In this document: piece by piece, positions 12,169 through 23,880 of the stretch
Numbering within the stretch: position 1 is the first letter of the stretch
Layout of the letters: the number at the start of each line of letters is the position of its first letter
Source of the DNA: Arenibacter nanhaiticus
GTDB taxonomy: Bacteria; Bacteroidota; Bacteroidia; Flavobacteriales; Flavobacteriaceae
NCBI RefSeq assembly: GCF_900141935.1
Contig: NZ_FQYX01000016.1
Span: 1-64,000, forward strand
DNA: 64,000 bases
Reading direction: 5' to 3'
The notes under the pieces: generated by a model
The model's input: the letters and a program-made list of their open reading frames with translations, nothing else
Database searches by the model: none
What the model was told of the DNA's origin: nothing
Position numbers and translations under genes: made by a program

Positions 12169-13530
12169 ATGTTTCATAAAATCATCACTTATTGGAACCT
12201 TCATAAATTTCCAATCCTATTGGCCCTTGTTAGTGTCCTTTTCTACACTAGTTTTGCCTACGATTTGGAGCGGAAGGATTTTACTAGGCTGATTACCCTA
12301 TTCGCAGGATTATTTTTTTTCTGCTACAAACTCATACAGTTCGAAAAGTGGAACTTTAGGTTCCTAGTGATTACCGGGATTATTTTTAGGCTTATTTTTC
12401 TCGGGGCCACACCCAATCTGTCACAGGACTTCTTTAGGTTTATCTGGGACGGCAACCTTATTGTCCAAGGACTAAACCCATATTTACATCTGCCCATAAA
12501 TCTTATCGCTCAAGAAGACTTTAGCTTAAACAATGCCCAACAATTAGTAGTAGGCATGGGCGAACTCAGTGCTTCCAATTATAGCAACTACCCTCCGTTA
12601 AACCAGTTAATTTTTGCCATTTCTTCCTTATTATCAGGAAAAAGCGTTGCCGGCTCCCTACTAATCATGCGGGTTTTTATAATTCTTGCAGAAATAGGGA
12701 TTCTTTATTTTGGCCGATTATTGCTCCTTAAACTGAACAAACCCGTCCATCTTATTTTCTGGTATTTCTTAAATCCCTTGATTATCATAGAATTAACCGG
12801 AAACCTTCATTTTGAAGGAGTAATGTTGTTCTTTTTTATATGGTCCATCTATCTTTTGCACACCAAAAAATGGAAGATAGCTGCTCCGGTTTACGCCATG
12901 TCCATCGCGGTAAAATTGGTGCCTTTAATATTCCTGCCCCTTTTTATAAAACACTTGGGACTAAAGAAAAGCCTGATTTTTTACAGCCTTGTAGCCGGAG
13001 TATCCGTTTTGTTTTTCTTTCCTTTCTTCAGTGTACAATTTTTAGAGAACTACTCTCAGACTATAGGACTATGGTTTTCAAATTTTGAGTTTAATGCCGG
13101 GCTGTACAATCTTGTGAAACACATAGCCGTTTCTTTTGGCGCCAAGCCTTGGGAACTTATCAAGGTATATGGAAAAATAACGCCCCCTATCGTTATCATC
13201 ACGGTAGGCCTATTCACCTTTTTGGCCGATAATAAAAAGACCCCCACCCTCCTCACCTCCATGGTATGGATCTTAAGTGTTTATTACCTATTAGCCACAA
13301 CCGTACACCCATGGTATATTGTGTTCTTAGCACTAACTTGCTTATTTACAGATATTAAACACCCCGTTATCTGGTCATTTTTTGTGTTTTTAAGCTATTG
13401 GACCTACTCGAATCCCGATTATAAGGAGCATAAGATAATCTTAATCGTTGAGTATATAGCAATTTATGGTTTTATGATTTATGAAATTATTAAAGCATAT
13501 AACAAAAAGGCAATATTTCGTAAAATTTAA
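12169..13530 (+). CDS. GT87-like polyprenyl-phosphate mannosyltransferase, membrane protein
   Basis: 453 residues with about ten hydrophobic TM segments throughout. The loop after the third helix contains SQDFFRFIWDGNLIVQGLNPYL, typical of GT-C/GT87 (DUF2029-like) transferases where acidic residues in the first loop are catalytic; SNYSNYPPLNQLIFA is another family block. These enzymes use polyprenyl-phosphate sugars on the outer face of the membrane, which matches the DPM-like gene at 9852. The ATG start directly follows a terminator-like hairpin and has no Shine-Dalgarno sequence, but no other start fits the first helix. A truly independent promoter was not found. Confidence 0.78.
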   Translation: MFHKIITYWNLHKFPILLALVSVLFYTSFAYDLERKDFTRLITLFAGLFFFCYKLIQFEKWNFRFLVITGIIFRLIFLGATPNLSQDFFRFIWDGNLIVQGLNPYLHLPINLIAQEDFSLNNAQQLVVGMGELSASNYSNYPPLNQLIFAISSLLSGKSVAGSLLIMRVFIILAEIGILYFGRLLLLKLNKPVHLIFWYFLNPLIIIELTGNLHFEGVMLFFFIWSIYLLHTKKWKIAAPVYAMSIAVKLVPLIFLPLFIKHLGLKKSLIFYSLVAGVSVLFFFPFFSVQFLENYSQTIGLWFSNFEFNAGLYNLVKHIAVSFGAKPWELIKVYGKITPPIVIITVGLFTFLADNKKTPTLLTSMVWILSVYYLLATTVHPWYIVFLALTCLFTDIKHPVIWSFFVFLSYWTYSNPDYKEHKIILIVEYIAIYGFMIYEIIKAYNKKAIFRKI

Positions 13531-13543
13531 TTCATTCTTCTTC

Positions 13544-13569
13544 TTGGTGCAATATTATTTGTACTTTTG
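13544..13569 (+). promoter_or_regulatory. Putative promoter of the arginine/proline operon
   Basis: A perfect -7 box TACTTTTG (13562-13569, TAnnTTTG form) with TTG at 13544-13546. The 15-base spacing is slightly under the usual 17-23. Transcription would begin near 13576, just upstream of the leader ORF at 13578, leaving a ~175-base leader before the first structural gene. Confidence 0.5.
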
Positions 13570-13577
13570 GTTTAACA

Positions 13578-13661
13578 ATGAATAACAACAAGCACATATT
13601 TAATTTTAAGGGGGTTACTAACCTTACTTATTCATTTACGCCTACACGTCGCCGCCCGTAA
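13578..13661 (+). CDS. Arginine-rich leader peptide of the arg operon
   Basis: A 27-codon ORF that begins MNNNKHIF and ends SFTPTRRRP followed by TAA. Three consecutive Arg codons (CGT CGC CGC) lie next to the stop, in the untranslated leader of an arginine operon and just after a promoter-like sequence. That is the classic design of an attenuation or ribosome-stalling leader peptide. The last Arg codon and the stop are inside a small hairpin with a GTAA tetraloop (13653-13666), and a second inverted repeat follows at 13679-13700. No T-run terminator is obvious, so the output may be translational or Rho-linked. The ORF and its context are seen; regulation is inference. Confidence 0.6.
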   Translation: MNNNKHIFNFKGVTNLTYSFTPTRRRP

Positions 13662-13700
13662 GGGTGCAATTCTTTCATGGAAATAGGTGTGTCCATTTCC
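13653..13700 (+). promoter_or_regulatory. Leader RNA hairpins downstream of the Arg codons
   Basis: Two stems: CGCCC-GTAA-GGGTG (13653-13666, GNRA-type loop, one G-T pair, overlapping the final Arg codon and stop) and GGAAAT/ATTTCC (13679-13684 with 13695-13700, 10-base loop). A ribosome stalled on the Arg codons would cover the first stem. Neither is followed by a convincing T-tract. Confidence 0.4.
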
Positions 13701-13751
13701 CCTCTCGAAAAACCAACAAATAATTTTAATTTTAATTTAAAGCAACATTCA

Positions 13752-14381
13752 ATGAAGATTGTAATTGCTAACGAGTCGCATTTTAAATATGCCGAAGTCA
13801 TTTGTGATACCATTGCAGAATCTGCAAGAGTAAGGGGTACTGGTATTGCTAAAAGGACTCCCGAATATGTACAAAAAAGGTTGCAAAACGGCAATGCTGT
13901 TATTGCCCTTGATGGCGATAAATTTGCCGGTTTCTGCTATATAGAAGTTTGGGGACACGAAAAATTTGTTGCTAATTCCGGACTTATTGTTCATCCAGAC
14001 TACAGAAATCAAGGTCTGGCGAAAATGATTAAAAAGGAAATTTTTGAACTCTCGAGAAAAAAATTCCCCAATGCCAAAATTTTTGGAATTACCACTGGTT
14101 TAGCGGTAATGAAAATGAATTATGAATTGGGTTATAAACCGGTAACATTTTCAGAGCTTACCAATGACCCCGAGTTTTGGAAAGGCTGTCAAACTTGTAA
14201 AAACTTTGATATCCTTACCAGAACCGAACAAAAAATGTGCCTGTGTACCGGCATGCTTTACGATCCGAGTTTGAACACAAAGGAGAAAGAAAAGGAAAAA
14301 GAAAAGGTAAATTCCAAAACCTTTACAAGATTGAAAAGTATTAAGGAATCTCTTTTCTTGAAAAAAAAAACAACCTCTTGA
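13752..14381 (+). CDS. GNAT acyltransferase of the arg operon, candidate N-acylglutamate synthase
   Basis: 209 residues from the ATG at 13752. An upstream in-frame ATG at 13677 would add 25 residues, but these lie in the regulatory leader and the GNAT fold begins MKIVIANESHF. LIVHPDYRNQGLAKMIKKE is the acetyl-CoA pyrophosphate-binding motif A (Q/RxxGxA). Unusually, the C-terminal part has a cysteine-rich stretch (GCQTCKNF...KMCLCTG) and then a KEKEKEKEK charged repeat. It is the first structural gene of an operon with every other arginine step, and no classical argA or argJ is present. It is therefore the best candidate for making N-acetyl- or N-succinyl-glutamate. The GNAT call is firm; the reaction is inference. 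Confidence 0.75.
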   Translation: MKIVIANESHFKYAEVICDTIAESARVRGTGIAKRTPEYVQKRLQNGNAVIALDGDKFAGFCYIEVWGHEKFVANSGLIVHPDYRNQGLAKMIKKEIFELSRKKFPNAKIFGITTGLAVMKMNYELGYKPVTFSELTNDPEFWKGCQTCKNFDILTRTEQKMCLCTGMLYDPSLNTKEKEKEKEKVNSKTFTRLKSIKESLFLKKKTTS

Positions 14382-14455
14382 AAAAATCCTCCTAATAAAG
14401 GAGCGACCTATCTTATTGAACCATATTATAAAAGAATAAAAAAGCTACAAGAAAA

Positions 14456-15646
14456 ATGAAGAAATTAGTTTTAGCCTATAGCGGTGGATTAGATACATCT
14501 TACTGTGCCAAATATTTATCTAAAGACAAAGGATTTGAAGTACATGCCGTAAGTGTAAATACCGGTGGTTTTTCTAAAGAAGAAATAGACACTATCCATC
14601 AAAAGGCTTTAGAATTGGGGGCCACTTCATATACTTCTATCGATGCCGTACAGACCTTTTATGACAAGGTAGTAAAGTACCTTATTTTCGGGAATGTTTT
14701 AAAAAATAACACCTACCCTTTATCGGTGAGTGCAGAGCGAATTGTGCAGGCCATTGAGATTGTCAATTACGCGAAAAAAGTTGGCGCAAAATATATCGCC
14801 CACGGAAGTACCGGAGCAGGAAACGACCAAGTGAGGTTCGATATGATTTTTCAGATCATTGCCCCGGAAATAGAAATTATCACTCCTATCCGTGACAATC
14901 AATTGTCAAGAGAAGTTGAAATCGCCTATTTGAAAGAAAATGGCGTAGATTATCCTTGGGAAAAAGCTAAATACTCTATCAACAGAGGGCTTTGGGGAAC
15001 ATCGGTCGGAGGTGATGAAACCCTTACTTCTCACAAATCTTTACCAGATAATGCTTACCCAAGCCAATTACAGGAAACGGAAGCCCAACAATTGAAACTT
15101 ACTTTTAACAAAGGAGAATTAATTGCCATAGATGGGGAGAACGATATCCCTGTCAACAACATTATTAAATTAGAGGCCATAGCTTCTAAATATGCCATAG
15201 GAAGAGATATCCATGTAGGGGACACTATTATCGGTATTAAGGGAAGAGTCGGTTTTGAGGCTCCTGCATCCTTGATTATCATTAAAGCACACCACCTCTT
15301 AGAAAAACACACCTTGACCAAATGGCAACAGTTCCAAAAGGAACAACAAGGAAATTTCTACGGTATGCTTTTGCACGAAGGAAATTACCTGGACGAAGTA
15401 ATGAGAAATATTGAGGCGTTCTTAACCGATACCCAAAAAAATGTTTCCGGTGATGTATATGTTACACTGCACCCATATAGATTTGAATTAAACGGTATAG
15501 ATTCATCCCACGATTTGATGAATGCCTCCTTTGGTAGTTATGGTGAAATGAACAAGGGCTGGACGGCAGATGATGCCAAAGGCTTTATAAAAATACTTTC
15601 TAACTCTGGAAAAATTTATAACCACGTAAACCAAAATCATGATTAA
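14456..15646 (+). CDS. argG: Argininosuccinate synthase
   Basis: 396 residues. The N-type ATP pyrophosphatase P-loop SGGLDTS is at 9-15, followed by HGSTGAGNDQVRFDM (citrulline/ATP site) and the aspartate-binding region around INRGLWGTSVGG. It joins citrulline and aspartate, driven by ATP. In the succinylated pathway the citrulline is released by the argE-like deacylase encoded in the same operon. It overlaps argC by 8 bases. Length is normal for the compact Bacteroidota form. Confidence 0.96.
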   Translation: MKKLVLAYSGGLDTSYCAKYLSKDKGFEVHAVSVNTGGFSKEEIDTIHQKALELGATSYTSIDAVQTFYDKVVKYLIFGNVLKNNTYPLSVSAERIVQAIEIVNYAKKVGAKYIAHGSTGAGNDQVRFDMIFQIIAPEIEIITPIRDNQLSREVEIAYLKENGVDYPWEKAKYSINRGLWGTSVGGDETLTSHKSLPDNAYPSQLQETEAQQLKLTFNKGELIAIDGENDIPVNNIIKLEAIASKYAIGRDIHVGDTIIGIKGRVGFEAPASLIIIKAHHLLEKHTLTKWQQFQKEQQGNFYGMLLHEGNYLDEVMRNIEAFLTDTQKNVSGDVYVTLHPYRFELNGIDSSHDLMNASFGSYGEMNKGWTADDAKGFIKILSNSGKIYNHVNQNHD

Positions 15647-16613
15647 AGCAGGTATCATTGGCGGATCGGGCTATACTGGTGGGGAGCTTATTAGAATCCT
15701 TTTAAACCACCCAGAAGTTACGATAGACTTTGTATATAGTACGACTAGAGCAGGGAAGCAAGTATCTGGGGCACACCCCGACTTATTGGGAGTTACCGAT
15801 CTTGTGTTCACCGGCGAAGTTAACAAGGATGTAGATGTAGTTTTCCTATGCCTTGGGCATGGGAATTCTACCAAATTTATCACTGAAAACGAATTTTCCG
15901 AAACCACTAGAATTATTGATTTAAGCAATGATTTTAGGTTAGCCGCAGATGCTGTCATAAACGACAAGACCTTTGTATACGGTTTGCCGGAACTTCGTAA
16001 AGAAGCTATTAAAAAGGCTAAGTATATTGCTAATCCTGGCTGTTTTGCCACGGCCATTCAATTGGCGTTATTGCCTTTGGCCAAGGCCAATCTGCTAAAC
16101 CAAGCGGTACATGTAAATGCCGTTACCGGAAGTACTGGCGCCGGAGTAAGCCTATCGCCTACCTCGCACTTCAGCTGGCGAAACAACAACGTTTCTTGGT
16201 ACAAACCCTTTACCCACCAGCATTTGGGAGAAATAAACGAGAGCTTACAAAGCTTACAGCCCCATACGGGCGAATTGTTTTTTCTGCCGAACAGGGGTGA
16301 TTTTACCAGAGGGATCTTAGCCACTGCCTACACCCATTTTGAAGGCAGCTTGGAAGAAGCTTATGAATTGTACAACGATTTTTACAAGGATGCCGCCTTT
16401 ACCCAAGTGACCGAAAACGAGATCAATCTAAAACAAGTAGTCAATACCAACCAATGCCATGTGCATCTGCACAAGCATAACGATACCTTGTTGATTACCT
16501 CGGCCATCGATAATTTATTAAAAGGAGCATCGGGACAGGCGGTACATAATATGAACCTGATCTTCGGATTTAAAGAAACGGAAGGCTTACAGTTGAAGGC
16601 CGGTGTTTTTTAA
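15639..16613 (+). CDS. argC: N-acyl-gamma-glutamyl-phosphate reductase
   Basis: 324 residues. The NADP-binding loop GGSGYTGGELIR sits at 8-19, and the catalytic Cys is C135 in YIANPGCFATAIQL, the PROSITE ArgC signature. It reduces the acyl-glutamyl phosphate made by ArgB to the semialdehyde. Starts 8 bases inside argG (ATGATTAA-type overlap), so translation is likely coupled. Because the downstream carbamoyltransferase looks succinyl-specific, the true substrate may be N-succinylglutamyl phosphate; this is inference. Confidence 0.95.
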   Translation: MIKAGIIGGSGYTGGELIRILLNHPEVTIDFVYSTTRAGKQVSGAHPDLLGVTDLVFTGEVNKDVDVVFLCLGHGNSTKFITENEFSETTRIIDLSNDFRLAADAVINDKTFVYGLPELRKEAIKKAKYIANPGCFATAIQLALLPLAKANLLNQAVHVNAVTGSTGAGVSLSPTSHFSWRNNNVSWYKPFTHQHLGEINESLQSLQPHTGELFFLPNRGDFTRGILATAYTHFEGSLEEAYELYNDFYKDAAFTQVTENEINLKQVVNTNQCHVHLHKHNDTLLITSAIDNLLKGASGQAVHNMNLIFGFKETEGLQLKAGVF

Positions 16614-16668
16614 AATACCCACAAACCGACCATTGAAAACCAATCATCAAAACGACTAAGAGCATCAA

Positions 16669-17472
16669 ATGAAAATAGCCATAATTGGAGCGGGAAATTT
16701 AGGACTGTCCATCGCCAAAGGAATTTTAAATTCTAATGGGGCCACGACCATGTTTTTAACCAAAAGAAATGTAGAAAGCCTACAGCCTTATGAAAAATAT
16801 GGCATGGTTACTACCACCACAAACAATAGAGAAGCCGTAGAAAAATCGGATATCCTAATTTTTGCGGTACAACCTGGGCATTTTGTAAAGATTTTGGAGG
16901 AGGTAAAGGACCTGATCACGGATAAACACGTTATTATTTCGACCATTACCGGATTTAGTATTGAAAAGATAGAATCCATTATAGGAGCGGACAATTATAT
17001 TATCCGAGCCATGCCCAATACGGCTATTTCGGTAGGAAAATCGATGACTTGTATTTGTTGCAATCAAAAAGGCACTAAAAGAGTAGATCTGGCCCTGGCC
17101 ATTTTTAACAGAATGGGGCATTCCATGCAGATTCCCGAAGACCAAATGCAGGCCGCTACGGTCATATGTGCTAGCGGGATTGCTTTCTGGATGCGATTGA
17201 TCCGTGCTACCACTCAAGGTGCCATCCAATTAGGTTTCGATGCCAAGGAAGCCCAGGAACTGGCCATGTACACCTGTAATGGGGCAGCGAGCTTGCTCAT
17301 AGAATCTGAAAGCCATCCGGAAAAGGAGATCGATAGGGTTACTACCCCTAAAGGCTGTACCATATCTGGACTAAACGAAATGGAACACCAAGGTTTAAGC
17401 TCTTCCTTAATCAGAGGGATCGTGACTTCCTTTGAAAAGATCAGTGACATTAAAAAAAACCAACCCAATTAA
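16669..17472 (+). CDS. proC: Pyrroline-5-carboxylate reductase
   Basis: 267 residues, normal size. N-terminal NAD(P) loop IGAGNLGLSIAKGI (5-18), VQPGHFVKIL and RAMPNTAISVGKSM in the middle, and near the end VTTPKGCTISGLNEME, which matches the ProC signature (T-P-x-G-x-T). It makes proline from pyrroline-5-carboxylate. Finding it inside the arginine operon links proline and arginine synthesis, which share glutamate semialdehyde chemistry. It follows argC by 55 bases. Confidence 0.94.
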   Translation: MKIAIIGAGNLGLSIAKGILNSNGATTMFLTKRNVESLQPYEKYGMVTTTTNNREAVEKSDILIFAVQPGHFVKILEEVKDLITDKHVIISTITGFSIEKIESIIGADNYIIRAMPNTAISVGKSMTCICCNQKGTKRVDLALAIFNRMGHSMQIPEDQMQAATVICASGIAFWMRLIRATTQGAIQLGFDAKEAQELAMYTCNGAASLLIESESHPEKEIDRVTTPKGCTISGLNEMEHQGLSSSLIRGIVTSFEKISDIKKNQPN

Positions 17473-17524
17473 TTTGGCAAACATTAGCCTCTAATCAATC
17501 ATAATATAAATAGCAATATTACTC

Positions 17525-18652
17525 ATGGAATTATTTGACGTTTACCCCCTATACAACGTAACTCCCGTTTCTGCCAAAGGAATTATAGTTACCGATGACA
17601 AAGGCCAGGAATATTTGGATTTTTATGGTGGTCATGCCGTTATTTCCATAGGGCATTCGCACCCTCACTATGTAAAGCGCTTAAAAGACCAATTAGACAA
17701 AATTGGCTTCTACAGCAATGCGGTACAAAACCCTATCCAAGTAGAACTGGCCCATAAATTAGGCGCACTTTCTAGCTGTGAAGACTATAATTTATTCCTG
17801 TGCAATTCTGGGGCCGAAGCCAATGAAAATGCCTTGAAACTAGCTTCTTTTAAAACAGGAAAATCTAGGGTTATTGCTTTTAAAAATGGTTTTCACGGAC
17901 GTACTTCTGCTGCAGTAGCGGCTACGGACAACGAAAAAATAAACGCCCCTTTAAACAAGCAACAGAAAGTAACGATTCTTCCCTTCGAGGACTTGGAGGC
18001 CTTTAAAGCCGAAATCGGCAAGGGCGATGTCTGTGCAGTCATCTTAGAATCGATTCAGGGCGTGGGAGGTTTAGACCAACCATCGCAGGAGTTCTATCAA
18101 AATATAGCTTCCCTATGCAAGGAACACCAGGTTATCCTTATTGCCGATGAAGTTCAATGTGGCTACGGACGAAGCGGTAAATTTTTTGCCTTTCAACATT
18201 TTGGCATCCAGCCCGATATTATCACCATTGCCAAGGGAATGGGGAACGGTTTTCCTATTGGCGGGGTACTTATTCATAAAAGCATCGAGGCTTCTTATGG
18301 TCTTTTGGGAACCACTTTTGGCGGTAACCATTTGGCATGTGCCGCAGGATTGGCAGTTTTGGAAGTCTTGGAAAAGGAAAACCTAATCGAAAATTCTGCC
18401 CGACTTTTCGAATATTTCAAAGAAAAGGCTGCTACCATACCTCAAGTAAAACGTGTCAAAGGAATGGGGCTGATGTTGGGATTAGAATTTGATTTTGAAG
18501 TTGCAGAACTGCGCAAAAAATTAATTCACAACCAATTTATATTTACCGGTGGCGCTAGCGATAAGCACGTGCTTAGAATACTACCTGCCTTAAATATTAC
18601 CAAAGAAAATTTAGACCTGTTTTTTGAAGCCCTTAAAACAGAATTGGCATAG
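17525..18652 (+). CDS. argD: Acyl-ornithine aminotransferase (class III, PLP)
   Basis: 375 residues, a compact class-III aminotransferase. LCNSGAEANENALK is the phosphate/PLP loop, D208 in ADEVQCGYGR contacts the pyridine nitrogen, and K237 in IAKGMGNGFPIGG is the Schiff-base lysine; TTFGGNHLAC follows. It interconverts N-acyl-glutamate semialdehyde and N-acyl-ornithine. Given the operon it should act on the succinyl or acetyl form; a role on free ornithine (RocD-like) is the alternative. Confidence 0.9.
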   Translation: MELFDVYPLYNVTPVSAKGIIVTDDKGQEYLDFYGGHAVISIGHSHPHYVKRLKDQLDKIGFYSNAVQNPIQVELAHKLGALSSCEDYNLFLCNSGAEANENALKLASFKTGKSRVIAFKNGFHGRTSAAVAATDNEKINAPLNKQQKVTILPFEDLEAFKAEIGKGDVCAVILESIQGVGGLDQPSQEFYQNIASLCKEHQVILIADEVQCGYGRSGKFFAFQHFGIQPDIITIAKGMGNGFPIGGVLIHKSIEASYGLLGTTFGGNHLACAAGLAVLEVLEKENLIENSARLFEYFKEKAATIPQVKRVKGMGLMLGLEFDFEVAELRKKLIHNQFIFTGGASDKHVLRILPALNITKENLDLFFEALKTELA

Positions 18653-18696
18653 GTGTATTGTTACAACAGGGGTACTGAAGGCAATACCCTTACCTT

Positions 18697-18732
18697 GGCC
18701 AATGGCTAGACTAATGGTCCCAGCCATTGGCC
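18697..18732 (+). other. Perfect 11-base inverted repeat between argD and proB
   Basis: GGCCAATGGCT (18697-18707) and AGCCATTGGCC (18722-18732) are exact reverse complements around a 14-base loop. It sits in a 191-base gap where flavobacterial operons commonly carry proA. No T-run follows, so it is more likely a processing/stability hairpin, or a scar of a lost gene, than a terminator. Confidence 0.6.
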
Positions 18733-18843
18733 TACCGTTACAGTATAATCAGTGGAAGGATTCGGTCTTGTTGCCCTAGCCTCTCCATCTTTCAGAATGC
18801 ACGGATAAAAAGATCAGAAGCCACCTAAGAAAGTAAAGGAGCC

Positions 18844-19614
18844 ATGGAAAAAATGAAGAAAAAACGCATTTTATTAAAAATAGGGTCCAACACCCTCACC
18901 AAGGAAACCAATCATATTTCTCGTGGGAAAATCGAGGATATTGGCAGACAAATAGCCCAATTAAAGGACGAGTACGAGTTTATCATTGTAAGTTCTGGTG
19001 CCATCGCTGCGGCCAAACAGTTTGTAAAACTAGAACACAACGGACAGGAAATAACCGTAAAACAAGCCTTGGCATCTATTGGTCAACCCCATTTAATGCG
19101 TATTTTTCAAGAAAATTTCAGGGAATTGGGTCTATTTACTTCACAATGTCTTTTGTCGTATTCCGATTTTGAGAAGGAAGTATCCAAGGAAAATATTTGC
19201 AATACCATCAATGTTTTGGTAGCCAATAATTTTATTCCTATTATTAATGAAAACGATACTGTGGCTACCGATGAGATACAGTTTGGGGACAATGACAAAT
19301 TGGCCGCCCTTACCGCATCGCTTTTAAAGGTCGACTTACTGATCATAGCTACCAATACGGACGGTGTGTACACCAAGGATTCCATTACCAACAAGGATCC
19401 GAAAACCATTGAGCTGGTGAGTAGTCTGAGTGATTTACAGAAAGAGGTCAGCTCGGAAAAATCTTCTCATGGTACCGGAGGTATGCAATCTAAGATAGAA
19501 GCGGCGACCATTGCTCGGAACGCCCAAATAGAAACATGGATCGTAAACGGTCTTAAAGATAATTTTATCATCAACGCTATGGGAAACCAAAGCGCTTTTA
19601 CTAAAATAATATAA
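18844..19614 (+). CDS. proB: Glutamate 5-kinase, PUA-less short form
   Basis: 256 residues covering only the amino-acid-kinase domain. RILLKIGSNTLT is the N-terminal phosphate-binding strand, VSSGAIAAAKQ the glutamate-side loop, IINENDTVATDEIQFGDNDKLAALTA the substrate and metal region, and GTGGMQSKIEAA the ATP loop. It phosphorylates glutamate in the first step of proline synthesis. E. coli ProB has an extra C-terminal PUA domain, absent here as in many Bacteroidota. The partner proA is not in the operon or the window. It lies 6 bases before argF'. ATG at 18853 is an alternative start. Confidence 0.92.
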   Translation: MEKMKKKRILLKIGSNTLTKETNHISRGKIEDIGRQIAQLKDEYEFIIVSSGAIAAAKQFVKLEHNGQEITVKQALASIGQPHLMRIFQENFRELGLFTSQCLLSYSDFEKEVSKENICNTINVLVANNFIPIINENDTVATDEIQFGDNDKLAALTASLLKVDLLIIATNTDGVYTKDSITNKDPKTIELVSSLSDLQKEVSSEKSSHGTGGMQSKIEAATIARNAQIETWIVNGLKDNFIINAMGNQSAFTKII

Positions 19615-19620
19615 GTTACA

Positions 19621-20595
19621 ATGGAACATTATTTATCCTTAAAAGATATAGATTCACTGCCCAATTGGGTGGCAGAGGCAAAATCATTAAAGGCAAATCC
19701 ACTTCACTATAAATCCCTTGGCGCCGCCAAGACCATCTGCCTTCTTTTTTTCAACAATAGCTTAAGAACCCGCCTTAGTACCCAAAAGGCCGCTATGAAT
19801 TTAGGCATGGAGGTTATTGTCATGAATTTTGGCAGCGAAGGTTGGGCATTGGAATATGGCGATGGCACCATCATGGACCAAGGTACCTCCGAACATATTA
19901 AAGAAGCGGCACAGGTAGTGGCCCAGTATTGCGATATTGTAGCCATTAGGGCTTTTGCTTCCTTAACGGACCGGGAAAAAGACGAGGCAGAAGTTGTTTT
20001 GAACGGCTTTAAAAAATACGCCGGTATCCCGGTAGTTAACATGGAAAGCTCCGTAGGCCATCCGCTACAGTCCCTAGCAGATGCTATTACACTATCCGAA
20101 CAAAACACCAAGGAAAAGCCTAAGGTTGTCCTTTCATGGGCGCCACACCCTAAGGCGCTTCCCCATGCCGTGGCAAATTCCTTTGTAGAAATGATGCATT
20201 TACAAGATGCCGAGTTTGTCATTACCCATCCCGAGGGTTATGAACTTAGCCCCGAAGTGACCAAAGGTGCCAAAATAGAGTACGACCAAGAAAAAGCCCT
20301 GGAAGGAGCCGATTTTGTGTACGTGAAGAACTGGAGCAATTATAAGGATTATGGAAAGGTGTTAAATCAAGATCCGAAATGGACCATGAACGCCAAAAAA
20401 TTGGGCAATGCCAAATTTATGCACTGTTTGCCGGTAAGGAGAAATATCGTAGTAGCCGATGAGGTGCTAGACAGTTCTCAATCGCTTGTCATAGAACAGG
20501 CCAATAACAGGACCTATGCAGCACAAATAGTGTTGAAAAAATTATTGGAAGGACTAAACAACAAGACTTCCAATACTTTGAAAACAGAGAAATAA
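19621..20595 (+). CDS. argF': N-succinylornithine carbamoyltransferase (SOTCase), by residue at specificity site
   Basis: 324 residues. FFNNSLRTRLST (43-54) is the carbamoyl-phosphate loop and FMHCLPVRRNI the late active-site block; WAPHPKALPHAV is typical of the acylornithine branch rather than classical ArgF. The residue that separates acetyl- from succinyl-ornithine enzymes (Glu92 in Xanthomonas AOTCase, Pro90 in Bacteroides fragilis SOTCase) aligns here to Ser90 in MDQGTSEHIKEA. From published work I recall that an E92S change turns AOTCase into SOTCase. The succinyl call is therefore well grounded, though it rests on an alignment made by eye. Confidence 0.85.
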   Translation: MEHYLSLKDIDSLPNWVAEAKSLKANPLHYKSLGAAKTICLLFFNNSLRTRLSTQKAAMNLGMEVIVMNFGSEGWALEYGDGTIMDQGTSEHIKEAAQVVAQYCDIVAIRAFASLTDREKDEAEVVLNGFKKYAGIPVVNMESSVGHPLQSLADAITLSEQNTKEKPKVVLSWAPHPKALPHAVANSFVEMMHLQDAEFVITHPEGYELSPEVTKGAKIEYDQEKALEGADFVYVKNWSNYKDYGKVLNQDPKWTMNAKKLGNAKFMHCLPVRRNIVVADEVLDSSQSLVIEQANNRTYAAQIVLKKLLEGLNNKTSNTLKTEK

Positions 20596-20641
20596 GAACA
20601 TATTAGTAAATACTCCTCCGGGAGCATATTAAGGCAAGGCG

Positions 20642-21421
20642 ATGAAACCAAAACTATCCATTGTAAAGATTGGCGGCAACGTAATCGAAAACGAAGCTGA
20701 ACTCCATAAATTTCTAGATTTCTTTTCGGAATTAAAAGGCGCTAAAATATTGGTGCACGGTGGCGGAAAATTAGCCACGCAAATTGCAGACCAACTAGGA
20801 ATAACTTCCCAAATGGTTGGAGGAAGAAGAATCACCGACAAGGAAAGCCTAAAGGTTATCACCATGGTGTACGGTGGTTTGGCCAACAAAAACATCGTAG
20901 CACAACTACAGGCAAAGGGCACCAATGCCATAGGCCTCAGCGGTGCCGATGGCAATACCATACAGGCTGTAAAAAGACCCGTAAAAGAAATCGACTATGG
21001 TTTTGCCGGGGATGTGGAAAAGGTGAATACCGCCGCGATTGAAAAATTGCTGAAGGCAGATTTCACCCCGGTCTTTTGTGCCATTACCCACAACAACCAA
21101 GGACAGCTTTTAAATACCAATGCCGATACCATAGCTTCGGAAATCGCCATAGGTATGAGTGGCGTATTTGAAACTACCCTTTACTACTGCTTTGAAAAGA
21201 AAGGCGTTTTATTGGATATTTCCGATGAAAACTCTGTGGTAACCCATATAGAACCGAAAAAATATCAGGAGTTATTACAAAACAACATCATTGCAGACGG
21301 CATGCTGCCAAAACTAGAAAACTGTTTTCATGCCCTTAACCAACAGGTGAACAAAGTATGTATTGGAGATATTTCCATGCTACAGCCTTCATCTACTTTA
21401 TACACTACGATTACCCTATAA
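20642..21421 (+). CDS. argB: N-acylglutamate kinase
   Basis: 259 residues, amino-acid kinase fold. SIVKIGGNVIEN (6-17) and ILVHGGGKLATQ hold the phosphate and nucleotide loops, GGRRITDKESL is the acyl-glutamate contact region, and LNTNADTIASEIAI the ATP-side block. It phosphorylates N-acyl-glutamate. It lacks the N-terminal extension that makes arginine-inhibited hexamers in other phyla, so feedback control may lie elsewhere, possibly in the leader at 13578. Only 2 bases separate its stop from the next ATG. Confidence 0.93.
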   Translation: MKPKLSIVKIGGNVIENEAELHKFLDFFSELKGAKILVHGGGKLATQIADQLGITSQMVGGRRITDKESLKVITMVYGGLANKNIVAQLQAKGTNAIGLSGADGNTIQAVKRPVKEIDYGFAGDVEKVNTAAIEKLLKADFTPVFCAITHNNQGQLLNTNADTIASEIAIGMSGVFETTLYYCFEKKGVLLDISDENSVVTHIEPKKYQELLQNNIIADGMLPKLENCFHALNQQVNKVCIGDISMLQPSSTLYTTITL

Positions 21422-21423
21422 AT

Positions 21424-22491
21424 ATGGACCAAACAATACTTACGGAAAAAGCCCTGGAATTATTAAAAAAACTCATTTCTATTCCTTCTTTTTCCTCTGA
21501 AGAAGATAAAACGGCCGATGCTATTGAACAATGGTTCAAAAGTTTCGATATCCCCTTTAAAAGAGAAAAAAATAATGTCTATGCCTTTAATAAGTATTTT
21601 GACGAAAGTAAACCGACCCTTCTTTTAAATTCGCACCACGACACCGTAAAACCCAATTCTGCCTATACCAAAGACCCTTTCCATCCACACATCGAGGACG
21701 GAAAACTCTATGGTCTGGGAAGTAATGATGCCGGAGGGTGTTTAGTGTCGCTAATAGCAACTTTTACGCATTTTTACAGTGCCAAAAACTTAAACCACAA
21801 TATTATTCTAGTTGCTTCTGCAGAAGAGGAGAGCTCTGGTCCGAACGGATTAAATAGCATGCTGCCTGTTCTTCCTAAAATTGATGTTGCCATTGTTGGG
21901 GAACCTACCCTAATGAATTTGGCCATTGCAGAAAAAGGCTTGGTTGTTTTTGAAGGCAAGGTGAGCGGAACCCCATCGCATGCAGCACATCCCAATAACA
22001 ACAACGCCATTTACAATACCATAGAGGTCTTGCAATGGTTTAAGGACTATAGATTCCCAAAGGTCTCCGAGGTTTTGGGCGAGGTAAAACTTACCGTTAC
22101 CCAGATTAATGGAGGAAGCCAGCACAATGTTGTTCCTGCACATATAGACCTGGTAATAGACGTTAGGGTCAATGACTGTTATACCAACAAGGAAATCGCC
22201 GATATATTGACCAAAGAGGCGCCTTGCGAAGTAAAACCACGCTCTTTGCGCCTAAACTCGTCTTCTATAGACAAAGCTCACCCCTTGGTACTTTCTGGTA
22301 TAAATTTAGGGCGTACCACCTACGGCTCGCCTACCCTATCGGACCAAGCTACATTAACTTGCCAATCCCTGAAATTGGGGCCTGGCGATAGTACGCGTTC
22401 TCACTCGGCAAATGAGTTTATTTATGTCGAAGAAATAAAAGAAGGCGTAGCCTTGTATATTAAAATTCTTGAAGGATTTTTACAAAAGTAA
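21424..22491 (+). CDS. argE: M20-family acylornithine/acylcitrulline deacylase (ArgE-like)
   Basis: 355 residues from the ATG at 21424; a longer frame from 21358 would run through the argB coding region and is rejected. M20 metal ligands are seen in order: HHDTVKP, GSNDAGG (bridging Asp), ASAEEESSG (catalytic Glu pair), VGEPT and, near the end, RSHSANEFI. It removes the acyl group. With a carbamoyltransferase that acts on N-acyl-ornithine, the logical substrate is N-succinyl- (or N-acetyl-) citrulline rather than acyl-ornithine. DapE-like activity is the alternative, but the operon argues for arginine. Confidence 0.87.
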   Translation: MDQTILTEKALELLKKLISIPSFSSEEDKTADAIEQWFKSFDIPFKREKNNVYAFNKYFDESKPTLLLNSHHDTVKPNSAYTKDPFHPHIEDGKLYGLGSNDAGGCLVSLIATFTHFYSAKNLNHNIILVASAEEESSGPNGLNSMLPVLPKIDVAIVGEPTLMNLAIAEKGLVVFEGKVSGTPSHAAHPNNNNAIYNTIEVLQWFKDYRFPKVSEVLGEVKLTVTQINGGSQHNVVPAHIDLVIDVRVNDCYTNKEIADILTKEAPCEVKPRSLRLNSSSIDKAHPLVLSGINLGRTTYGSPTLSDQATLTCQSLKLGPGDSTRSHSANEFIYVEEIKEGVALYIKILEGFLQK

Positions 22492-22593
22492 TTAGGCGAA
22501 AATCACTTTTCAATCAATAGTGAGCCATAAGAAATAAGAGTAATCTGTCGGTTTCGGCAGCATCCGAAACGATTAATAAAAAGTATAGAAAAC

Positions 22594-23880
22594 ATGAAAC
22601 TTTGGGATAAAGGATTTAGCACCGATAAAAAAATAGACCATTTTACCGTGGGGAACGATAGGGAGTTGGACCTGCTTTTAGCAAAATACGATGTGATTGC
22701 CTCTAAGGCACATGCCAAAATGCTTGGAAAGATAGGATTGTTGACTGCAACGGAATCTGAATCCTTGGTACAAGAATTGGACAATATAGCTGTGACCATA
22801 GCCAATGGCGATTTTACCATTGAGGATTCTTTTGAGGATATGCATTCTAAAATTGAGTATCTCCTCATTGAAAAATTGGGCGATACCGGTAAAAAAATCC
22901 ATATGGCACGTTCTCGTAACGACCAGGTTTTGGTAGCCATGCATTTATTCCTGAAAAATGAACTCTCAGAAATAAAGGAAGAAACAAAAATCCTTTTCGA
23001 TTTATTGCTTCAACTTGCCGAGACCCATAAGGAAACGCTATTACCTGGGTACACCCATTTGCAAATTGCCATGCCTTCTTCTTTCGGACTATGGTTTTCT
23101 GCCTATGCCGAAAGTTTAATAGACGATCTTTATTTTGTAGATGCCGCCTATAAGGTCGCCGATCAGAACCCTTTGGGCAGTGCTGCAGGATACGGTAGTT
23201 CTTTCCCTATAGACCGTAATTATACTACGGAGGAATTGGGCTTCCAAGCTATGAAATACAATGTTGTGGCCGCGCAAATGGGGCGTGGAAAAGTAGAAAA
23301 AGCTGCCGCCTTCGGAATGAGCAGTATCGCCGCTACCCTTTCTAAAATGTCCATGGATATCTGCTTGTATATGAGCCAGAATTTTGACTTTATCTCCTTC
23401 CCCGATGAGCTTACAACAGGTTCGAGCATAATGCCACACAAGAAAAATCCGGATGTCTTTGAATTGATCCGTGCCAAATGTAATAAGATACAGTCGGTAC
23501 CCAACCAATTGATCCTTATTACAAACAACCTGCCCAGTGGTTACCACCGAGACCTGCAATTGGTAAAAGAGGTGATCGTACCCGCTATTCAGGATTTAAA
23601 GGCATGTTTAGAGATTCTTACCTTTAGCTTAAAGGAAGTTAAGGTGAACAAAAGTATATTGAAGGACCCAAAATACGATTACCTATTTAGTGTCGATACC
23701 TTAAATGAATTGGTATTGACAGGAATGCCGTTTAGAGATGCCTATAAGAAAATGGGACAGGAAATCAATGCCGGCACCTTTCGTCCTAAGCGCGATATTA
23801 AACATACCCACGAGGGCAGCTTAGGCAATTTATGTCTGGCTGAGATCAGCAAAAAAATGGAAAAAATAATTGGGAAATAA
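22594..23880 (+). CDS. argH: Argininosuccinate lyase
   Basis: 428 residues, slightly short but full-length for Bacteroidota. KIHMARSRNDQV holds the substrate-binding block, LLPGYTHLQIAMPSS follows, and GSSIMPHKKNPD is the fumarase/aspartase superfamily signature with the catalytic Ser. It releases arginine and fumarate. Last gene of the operon, followed at 38 bases by a strong terminator. The 102-base gap from argE is the longest among the final genes but shows no separate promoter. Confidence 0.95.
   Translation: MKLWDKGFSTDKKIDHFTVGNDRELDLLLAKYDVIASKAHAKMLGKIGLLTATESESLVQELDNIAVTIANGDFTIEDSFEDMHSKIEYLLIEKLGDTGKKIHMARSRNDQVLVAMHLFLKNELSEIKEETKILFDLLLQLAETHKETLLPGYTHLQIAMPSSFGLWFSAYAESLIDDLYFVDAAYKVADQNPLGSAAGYGSSFPIDRNYTTEELGFQAMKYNVVAAQMGRGKVEKAAAFGMSSIAATLSKMSMDICLYMSQNFDFISFPDELTTGSSIMPHKKNPDVFELIRAKCNKIQSVPNQLILITNNLPSGYHRDLQLVKEVIVPAIQDLKACLEILTFSLKEVKVNKSILKDPKYDYLFSVDTLNELVLTGMPFRDAYKKMGQEINAGTFRPKRDIKHTHEGSLGNLCLAEISKKMEKIIGK

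Follow-up and report, generated by a model that had tools for sequence, protein, structure and literature searches.

A conserved arginine-codon leader RNA ahead of the arginine/proline operon in many Flavobacteriaceae is probably read by the ribosome

Ahead of their arginine and proline synthesis operon, Arenibacter nanhaiticus and many other Flavobacteriaceae carry a short open reading frame (ORF) with conserved tandem arginine codons, followed by two covarying RNA hairpins at a fixed spacing from each other, the first of which takes in the end of the ORF. We think it probable that this leader is an arginine sensor that is read by the ribosome and controls entry into the operon, through a ribosome stall, a first hairpin (A) that the stall would block, a pause or termination event behind it and an accessory second hairpin (B). 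In many bacteria, arginine-dependent control of arg genes is the task of ArgR, which resembles the proposed sensor in what it achieves but is a DNA-binding protein, and we found no match to it (PF01316) in 149 genomes of the family, that of A. nanhaiticus included; nine of 14 control genomes, one of them a Bacteroides, were positive (eight over the cut-off).

The window, by which we mean the whole stretch of 64,000 nucleotides of A. nanhaiticus DNA that was analysed, contains the leader and the operon at the positions given in Table 1. An initial annotation of this DNA had described a 27-codon ORF ending TRRRP-stop, with three arginine codons beside hairpins, just downstream of a promoter-like sequence and ahead of the arginine operon. 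The ORF is exactly as described, and its terminal codons are ACA CGT CGC CGC CCG TAA, with the third arginine codon, the proline codon and the stop codon inside hairpin A. The promoter-like sequence proved to be the box TACTTTTG, which we take to be of the Bacteroidota -7 promoter type (consensus TAnnTTTG). Among 135 loci from outside the genus (sample described below), 31 have an exact box -132 to -115 from the hairpin B tip and 20 have one at -262 to -240, with one locus having both; few boxes lie elsewhere, and the majority of loci have no exact box. This clustering just 5' of the leader, in a minority of loci, would be compatible with transcription through the leader. A further hairpin, C, is predicted from the fold of the window's leader, with weak to moderate support from folding against shuffles (mean z -0.84 in 111 loci and -1.79 in 41 tandem-class loci).

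Table 1. Leader and operon features in the window
Feature	Position	Strand	Basis
Presumed -7-type promoter box, TACTTTTG (TAnnTTTG)	13562..13569	+	sequence
Leader peptide ORF, MNNNKHIFNFKGVTNLTYSFTPTRRRP, 27 codons from ATG at 13578, ending TPTRRRP-stop	13578..13661	+	sequence
Hairpin C, within ORF, 5' of Arg codons	13607..13630	+	predicted fold of window leader
Tandem Arg codons CGT CGC CGC, third opening 5' arm of hairpin A	13647..13655	+	
Hairpin A, CGCCC-GUAA-GGGUG, TAA in loop	13653..13666	+	covariation
U-rich 12-nt linker, last base U before first G of B	13667..13678	+	alignment
Hairpin B, GGAAAT-a-GG-TGTGT-CC-ATTTCC: stem 13679-13684/13695-13700, bulged A 13685, tip GG-UGUGU-CC 13686-13694	13679..13700	+	
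Spacer, G-poor, A/T-rich, up to GNAT start	13701..13751	+	composition and folding vs shuffles
GNAT acetyltransferase, first gene of operon	13752..14381	+	Pfam PF00583; NCBIfam matches far below cut-off
argG	14456..15646	+	TIGR00032 above cut-off
argC	15639..16613	+	TIGR01850 above cut-off
proC	16669..17472	+	TIGR00112 above cut-off
argD-like transaminase	17525..18652	+	TIGR00707 best match, below its cut-off
proB	18844..19614	+	TIGR01027 above cut-off
N-acetylornithine carbamoyltransferase-like	19621..20595	+	NF003384 best match, 279 bits vs cut-off 288
argB	20642..21421	+	TIGR00761 above cut-off
argE/dapE-family deacylase (ORF as listed; real start possibly further in)	21358..22491	+	TIGR01910 best match, below cut-off
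argH	22594..23880	+	TIGR00838 above cut-off

Family profiles identified ten genes behind the leader, from the GNAT acetyltransferase to argH, which bears out its position ahead of an arginine operon; the names argD, carbamoyltransferase and argE are best NCBIfam matches under their cut-offs. Although proB and proC are present, no proA was assigned in the scan of the ten operon ORFs (13752-23880). The most likely start of the GNAT gene is 13752 and not 13677, because an MKIVIA-type N terminus is common to its relatives; we rejected the ATG at 13677, which lies in hairpin B, as the beginning of an N-terminal extension, since neither the frames nor the starts are conserved. Residues 1-174 of the GNAT protein are 100% identical to those in Arenibacter sp. 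6A1, and past the approximately 173 residues common to relatives the protein has a Lys/Glu-rich tail (KEKEKEKEK.., window 14285-14381).

We searched for the leader RNA in other genomes with a covariance model (R1) of the ORF end and the hairpins, made from nine seed rows, two of which had one base deleted as an alignment device. Among 299 Flavobacteriaceae genomes, 174 matched at E <= 0.01, each with a single match except one (G126) with two, and 196 of the same draw had the GNAT gene (E <= 1e-30). The model matched in 172 of the 196 GNAT-positive genomes versus two of the 103 GNAT-negative ones, leaving the gene alone in 24. This figure of 24 overestimates the losses, because two of the eight such loci inspected (L149 and L155) carry the hairpin tip and score in a laxer model search. 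In a search of 60 genomes, the genome of A. nanhaiticus included, the GNAT gene was found in 38, and all 30 loci returned had both the hairpin tip and a model match. Across the phylum, 15 of 395 genomes matched under strict filters (the split of the 395 into family and non-family genomes is not given), and all 15 were Flavobacteriaceae. Among the best 80 of 538 matching named genome records, which are close relatives, the element was at the same place in all 80. No model of Rfam 15 matched the window above its gathering score; in 13450-13800, the only two matches were far below theirs, both to animal lncRNA models.

The leader appears to be tied to the operon rather than to this particular GNAT gene, because in two genomes, G124 and G192 (loci L166 and L167), a different GNAT-like ORF lies between it and argG. 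By the Pfam GNAT profile, one of these first ORFs scores above the cut-off and the other is weak (13.6 versus 20.7 bits). It was in these two relatives that we followed the operon to argG; elsewhere, the neighbour check covered the adjoining GNAT gene.

For the analysis of the peptide and the hairpins, 140 further family loci, mostly picked for their model match, were added to the first 30, giving a biased sample of 170. With the 17 loci of the window's own genus excluded, 142 tip-bearing loci remained, of which seven lacked the alignment anchor (CGNCGN followed by C or A and then C) and several of these seven have a single arginine codon (PRP-stop, TRP-stop). In the 135 loci left, which were aligned on an anchor that itself demands two CGN codons, the ten codons 5' of the RNA structure hold an average of 2.20 arginines in frame; the two alternative frames average 0.54 and 0.29. 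In-frame arginine exceeded that in both other frames in 111 of the 135, was tied in 17 and lower in seven; the p-values printed for this enrichment are too strong, because the loci are related. In 99% of the 135 loci, no stop codon interrupts the reading frame over more than 20 codons upstream, whereas the two alternative frames stay open that far in 30% and 33%. Conservation of the arginine run in relatives, which the initial annotation had proposed as the check on its reading, was thus found both in the genome search and in the peptide.

The ORF ends in RRP-stop in 116 of the 135 loci, in RRPL.. in nine and in other RRP or RRT forms in ten. In 117, the stop codon falls nine bases past the first base of the anchored arginine pair, and hence in the loop of hairpin A. 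The terminal proline can be replaced, as in RRT, while the arginines are kept; since RRPL, RRT and other ends exist, we discarded the idea of a terminal Pro-stop arrest signal as dispensable. An in-frame ATG was found in 115 of the 152 anchored loci (own genus included) and in none of the other 37, which may use other start codons; the commonest length is 27 codons, in 40 loci (own genus included). Upstream of the hairpin, 88% of the arginine codons are CGT or CGC (297 codons from many species), whereas these codons account for 26% of the 595 arginine codons in the window's 42 long ORFs, which represent one species; part of the CGY excess may come from a general C/T bias of the stretch. The bias is of interest because the sensitivity of an attenuator has been argued to depend on the synonymous codon used (accessible part of PMC1183508).

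The evidence for structure in the leader RNA rests on covariation, for which we used 100 of the 170 loci, hand-chosen for spread and aligned with the model, in an alignment that leans towards the model's structure. In this set, 97.2% of the pair cells hold standard pairs, 117 cells are changed on both sides and eight of the 13 pairs show such changes. None of 500 shuffled controls reached any of five covariation measures, the signal was lost when the partner was slid by one to three columns, and RNAalifold recovered 12 of the 13 pairs. In hairpin A, A-U replaces C-G at one pair in five of the 100 loci and G-C replaces G-U in 13; in 18 loci, the outermost bases do not pair. In hairpin B, all six lower-stem pairs are changed on both sides in some loci, as is one of the two tip pairs (A-U in three loci, U-A in one). 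Folding energies against shuffles were lower for A across the family (mean z approximately -1.7) than for the B stretch (only -0.68 and -0.20), and the window's entire leader, folded alone, was no more stable than its shuffles (z +0.48), a whole-leader measure that is uninformative. The linker from A to B is 11-13 nt long in 88 of the 100 loci and T-rich in its 3' half; in 65, it ends in T and stem B opens with G. Such spacing is the geometry of hairpin-stabilized RNA polymerase pauses, for example that of the his leader, and by this analogy the linker resembles a pause site.

The tip of hairpin B, AGG-UGNGU-CC with the loop consensus UGNGU, is near-invariant across the family. Its exact string, GGTGNGTCC, occurs in 159 of the 170 fetched loci, and the model found near variants in five more (L104, L125, L136, L140 and L156). 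The tip is absent from six, which are the rest of the eight inspected loci with the GNAT gene and no model match: L112 and L163 have look-alikes, L100 has a degenerate stretch, no leader element could be discerned by inspection in L109, and L141 and L142, by eye, have the GNAT gene and no A/B element but carry other Arg-rich ORFs instead (RRRRCRE-stop and RRRIRE-stop). We considered the tip as a mimic of a Shine-Dalgarno sequence (AGGUGA), which is unlikely, since GA in place of GG in L104, L136 and L140 breaks the match; matching changes keep both tip pairs in L136 and L140, and L104 retains one of the two. We also rejected the tip as an element common to other operons: the pattern RGGTGAGTCC occurs nine times in the A. 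nanhaiticus genome, compared with two for a control pattern, and all nine occurrences are in coding sequence by eye.

The initial annotation had called this arrangement the textbook layout of ribosome-mediated attenuation, with no clear T-run. The lack of a T-run stands: there is none 3' of hairpin B in the window, and a loose T-rich criterion picked out 14 of 159 loci at this place. The same criterion picked out 56 of 100 loci 3' of hairpin A, and a terminator scan listed the window's hairpin A as terminator-like; because most of the U's there do not adjoin the stem, A would be a poor intrinsic terminator. The textbook layout was not borne out. We looked for a mutually exclusive antiterminator by ten pairings in 152 loci with 20 shuffles each, setting the A and B arms and the linker against approximately 70 nt upstream or 57 nt downstream (helices beyond this reach are invisible to the search), and obtained mean z values of -0.41 to +0.20. 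One outlier (z -0.84), in which the 5' arm of A pairs with the B tip, is what two fixed sequences without covariation would be expected to give, and in loci in which A is CGCAC/GUGCG the B tip is unchanged. In the same genome, a his leader (MKNKNTHHHHFHTGDQAR; L268 2222-2278, minus strand, contig C28 of G000) and a trp leader (MKNRISNTWWWTNLRQTS; L269 1287-1343, plus strand, contig C46 of G000) are each followed, by eye, by a GC-containing hairpin and a T-run, before hisG and trpE, respectively; because these two seem textbook, the arginine leader is the odd one out.

In the model that we favour, the ribosome would translate the short leader ORF and, when charged arginine tRNA is scarce, would stall on the tandem CGY codons. 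As these codons sit in or just before the 5' arm of A, the stalled ribosome would block hairpin A, and RNA polymerase would continue into the operon. When arginine is ample, the ribosome would complete the ORF and leave at the stop codon, usually in the loop of A; hairpin A would then be free to fold behind the polymerase, approximately 12 nt upstream of the start of B. The stall, the direction of control (on in starvation) and A as the switch are what we propose. More tentatively, the folded A might bring about a pause or premature termination at the linker, whether by weak intrinsic termination or perhaps with Rho or another factor, and B might be an accessory element, its UGNGU tip being read by some putative factor. 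With the stalled ribosome itself as the antiterminator, no alternative helix is required, which agrees with the finding of none. The model leaves the near-invariance of the B tip unexplained.

The same leader could instead feed a Rho-linked control, which we regard as possible but rather unlikely: the stretch over the arginine codons would be a Rho-loading site, hidden by a starved ribosome and open after its exit, and A and B would shape only access or pausing. In 91 single-leader loci, C does exceed G over the arginine codons, with pyrimidines mostly at 59-71% from approximately -36 to +5; most loci have no T-run after B, and a Salmonella leader with two arginine codons acts partly through Rho (accessible part of PMC6386406). 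The C richness is, however, confounded by the arginine and proline codons, and it is patchy in the 44 tandem-class loci (for example, C-G of -0.07 at -18); here, too, the conserved B tip is left without an explanation. A translational mechanism, also raised in the initial annotation, would have the hairpins hide the GNAT start, or work by reinitiation, until a ribosome on the leader relieves them. The distance from the B tip to the GNAT start is rather constant, 57-72 nt in 132 of 145 loci, which would favour such a mechanism, but the sequence separating B from that start has little G and is less structured than shuffles, and no consistent pairing with it was found, so that the hairpins are unlikely to hide the start. 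Moreover, the 90 nt from the leader stop to the GNAT start in the window exceed the distance peaks of 10-16 nt for leader genes thought to act by reinitiation (accessible part of PMC4833913). We consider translational attenuation improbable.

Two further readings would take translation of the ORF out of the account. The nine near-invariant tip bases and the bulged A resemble an RNA that is recognized by something, and the leader might on this ground be a riboswitch-like RNA that binds a ligand or a protein, with the ORF incidental. This seems quite improbable given the enrichment of in-frame arginine outside the structure, the frame kept open for more than 20 codons and the arginines retained where the terminal proline varies to RRT. 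That the ORF is a chance frame inside a conserved non-coding stretch draws on the fact that hairpin A partly forces the conservation of RRP; frame-specific arginine enrichment outside that hairpin, the open frame and the codon choice speak so strongly against it that we give it hardly any weight.

Some loci appear to carry a second unit. Of the 170 fetched loci, an automatic flag marked 69 (some falsely, such as L020, L048 and L049), and at least 43, chosen from these by eye, have a second arginine leader upstream (M..KNKIR..RRR) of approximately 23 codons, starting near -238 from the B tip, as with MKTLKNKIRCTIPGLPVRSRRRF in L125. This is the architecture that goes with the boxes at -262 to -240; for the composition profile, four loci were added to the 43. 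Other examples, at approximately -240 to -125 from the B tip, are L093, L099, L107 and L151. A T-run near -130 follows this upstream leader, and on inspection its strand ACGTAATTTTA..TTTTTT is complementary to the leader's own KNKIR codons; RNAalifold did not recover the long helix from an alignment of the upstream leaders. The upstream unit may act as an attenuator of the T-run type, placed in tandem before A/B. We also looked by eye at eight loci from elsewhere in the order, outside the family. Arginine-containing short ORFs stand before the gene in six, L182 and L185 (RRRPVRV-stop), L187 (FFRRPLWVLN-stop), L180, L184 and L186, all of which lack GGTGNGTCC, and none was seen in L181 and L183. 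These outgroup leaders have different hairpins, for example AATGRTTACGTAYCATT after RRRPVRV-stop, and the arginine leader may predate the A/B element.

In its general plan, the leader resembles the trp and his attenuators: a short ORF before the biosynthetic operon of an amino acid, tandem codons for that same amino acid, a box just upstream and hairpins near the codons. It differs from them in that no exclusive antiterminator pairing was detected and that mostly no T-run follows the last hairpin, and also in its stop codon, usually in a hairpin loop, and its second hairpin with a near-invariant tip. The nearest functional relative, going by the accessible part of PMC6386406, is orf34 in the speF leader of Salmonella, in which two consecutive arginine codons sense arginine; its authors found no Rho-independent terminator, and a hairpin lies 3' of the ORF stop. 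Unlike the leader described here, orf34 controls ornithine decarboxylase and not arginine synthesis, its transcript starts 516 nt upstream, it works through Rho, hiding of a ribosome site and RNase G, and it encodes another peptide in another phylum. Within the family, 'strong clues' of leader peptide attenuation at amino acid operons have been reported for Flavobacterium psychrophilum, with no arginine leader named in the accessible part of that report (PMC9723704). Among RNA motifs, the accessible part of Weinberg 2010 (PMC2864571) lists the GUCCY-hairpin and Bacteroid-trp motifs in Bacteroidetes, the former without an Rfam number in its table; compared by name only, the GUCCY-hairpin shares GUCC with hairpin B, but 98% of 145 loci have A or G as the next base in B, whereas the name suggests a pyrimidine. 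Among the matches listed in the open literature (closed papers and supplements being outside its scope), we found no case, whether from Bacteroidota or from other bacteria, in which an Arg-codon attenuator precedes an operon for arginine biosynthesis, and the accessible parts of PMC2965389, PMC8632094 and PMC2864571 hold nothing on one.

Taken together, these observations also allow a bolder reading, which we offer as speculative and on the doubtful side: the leader would represent a novel type of attenuator that does without an antiterminator, in which sense and stop codons lie in one hairpin blocked by the ribosome, and the UGNGU hairpin would be the docking site of a factor that decides whether RNA polymerase halts or proceeds, the whole standing in for ArgR in much of the Flavobacteriaceae and being doubled in many genera by the upstream arginine leader. 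The near-invariant B tip, for its part, points to a putative binding partner. If the ribosome-read sensor that we favour is correct, it would add a well-bounded RNA family, for which no Rfam match was found in the window, and a clean test case for a ribosome that acts directly as an antiterminator, and it would show a way in which much of the Flavobacteriaceae may control arginine synthesis without ArgR.
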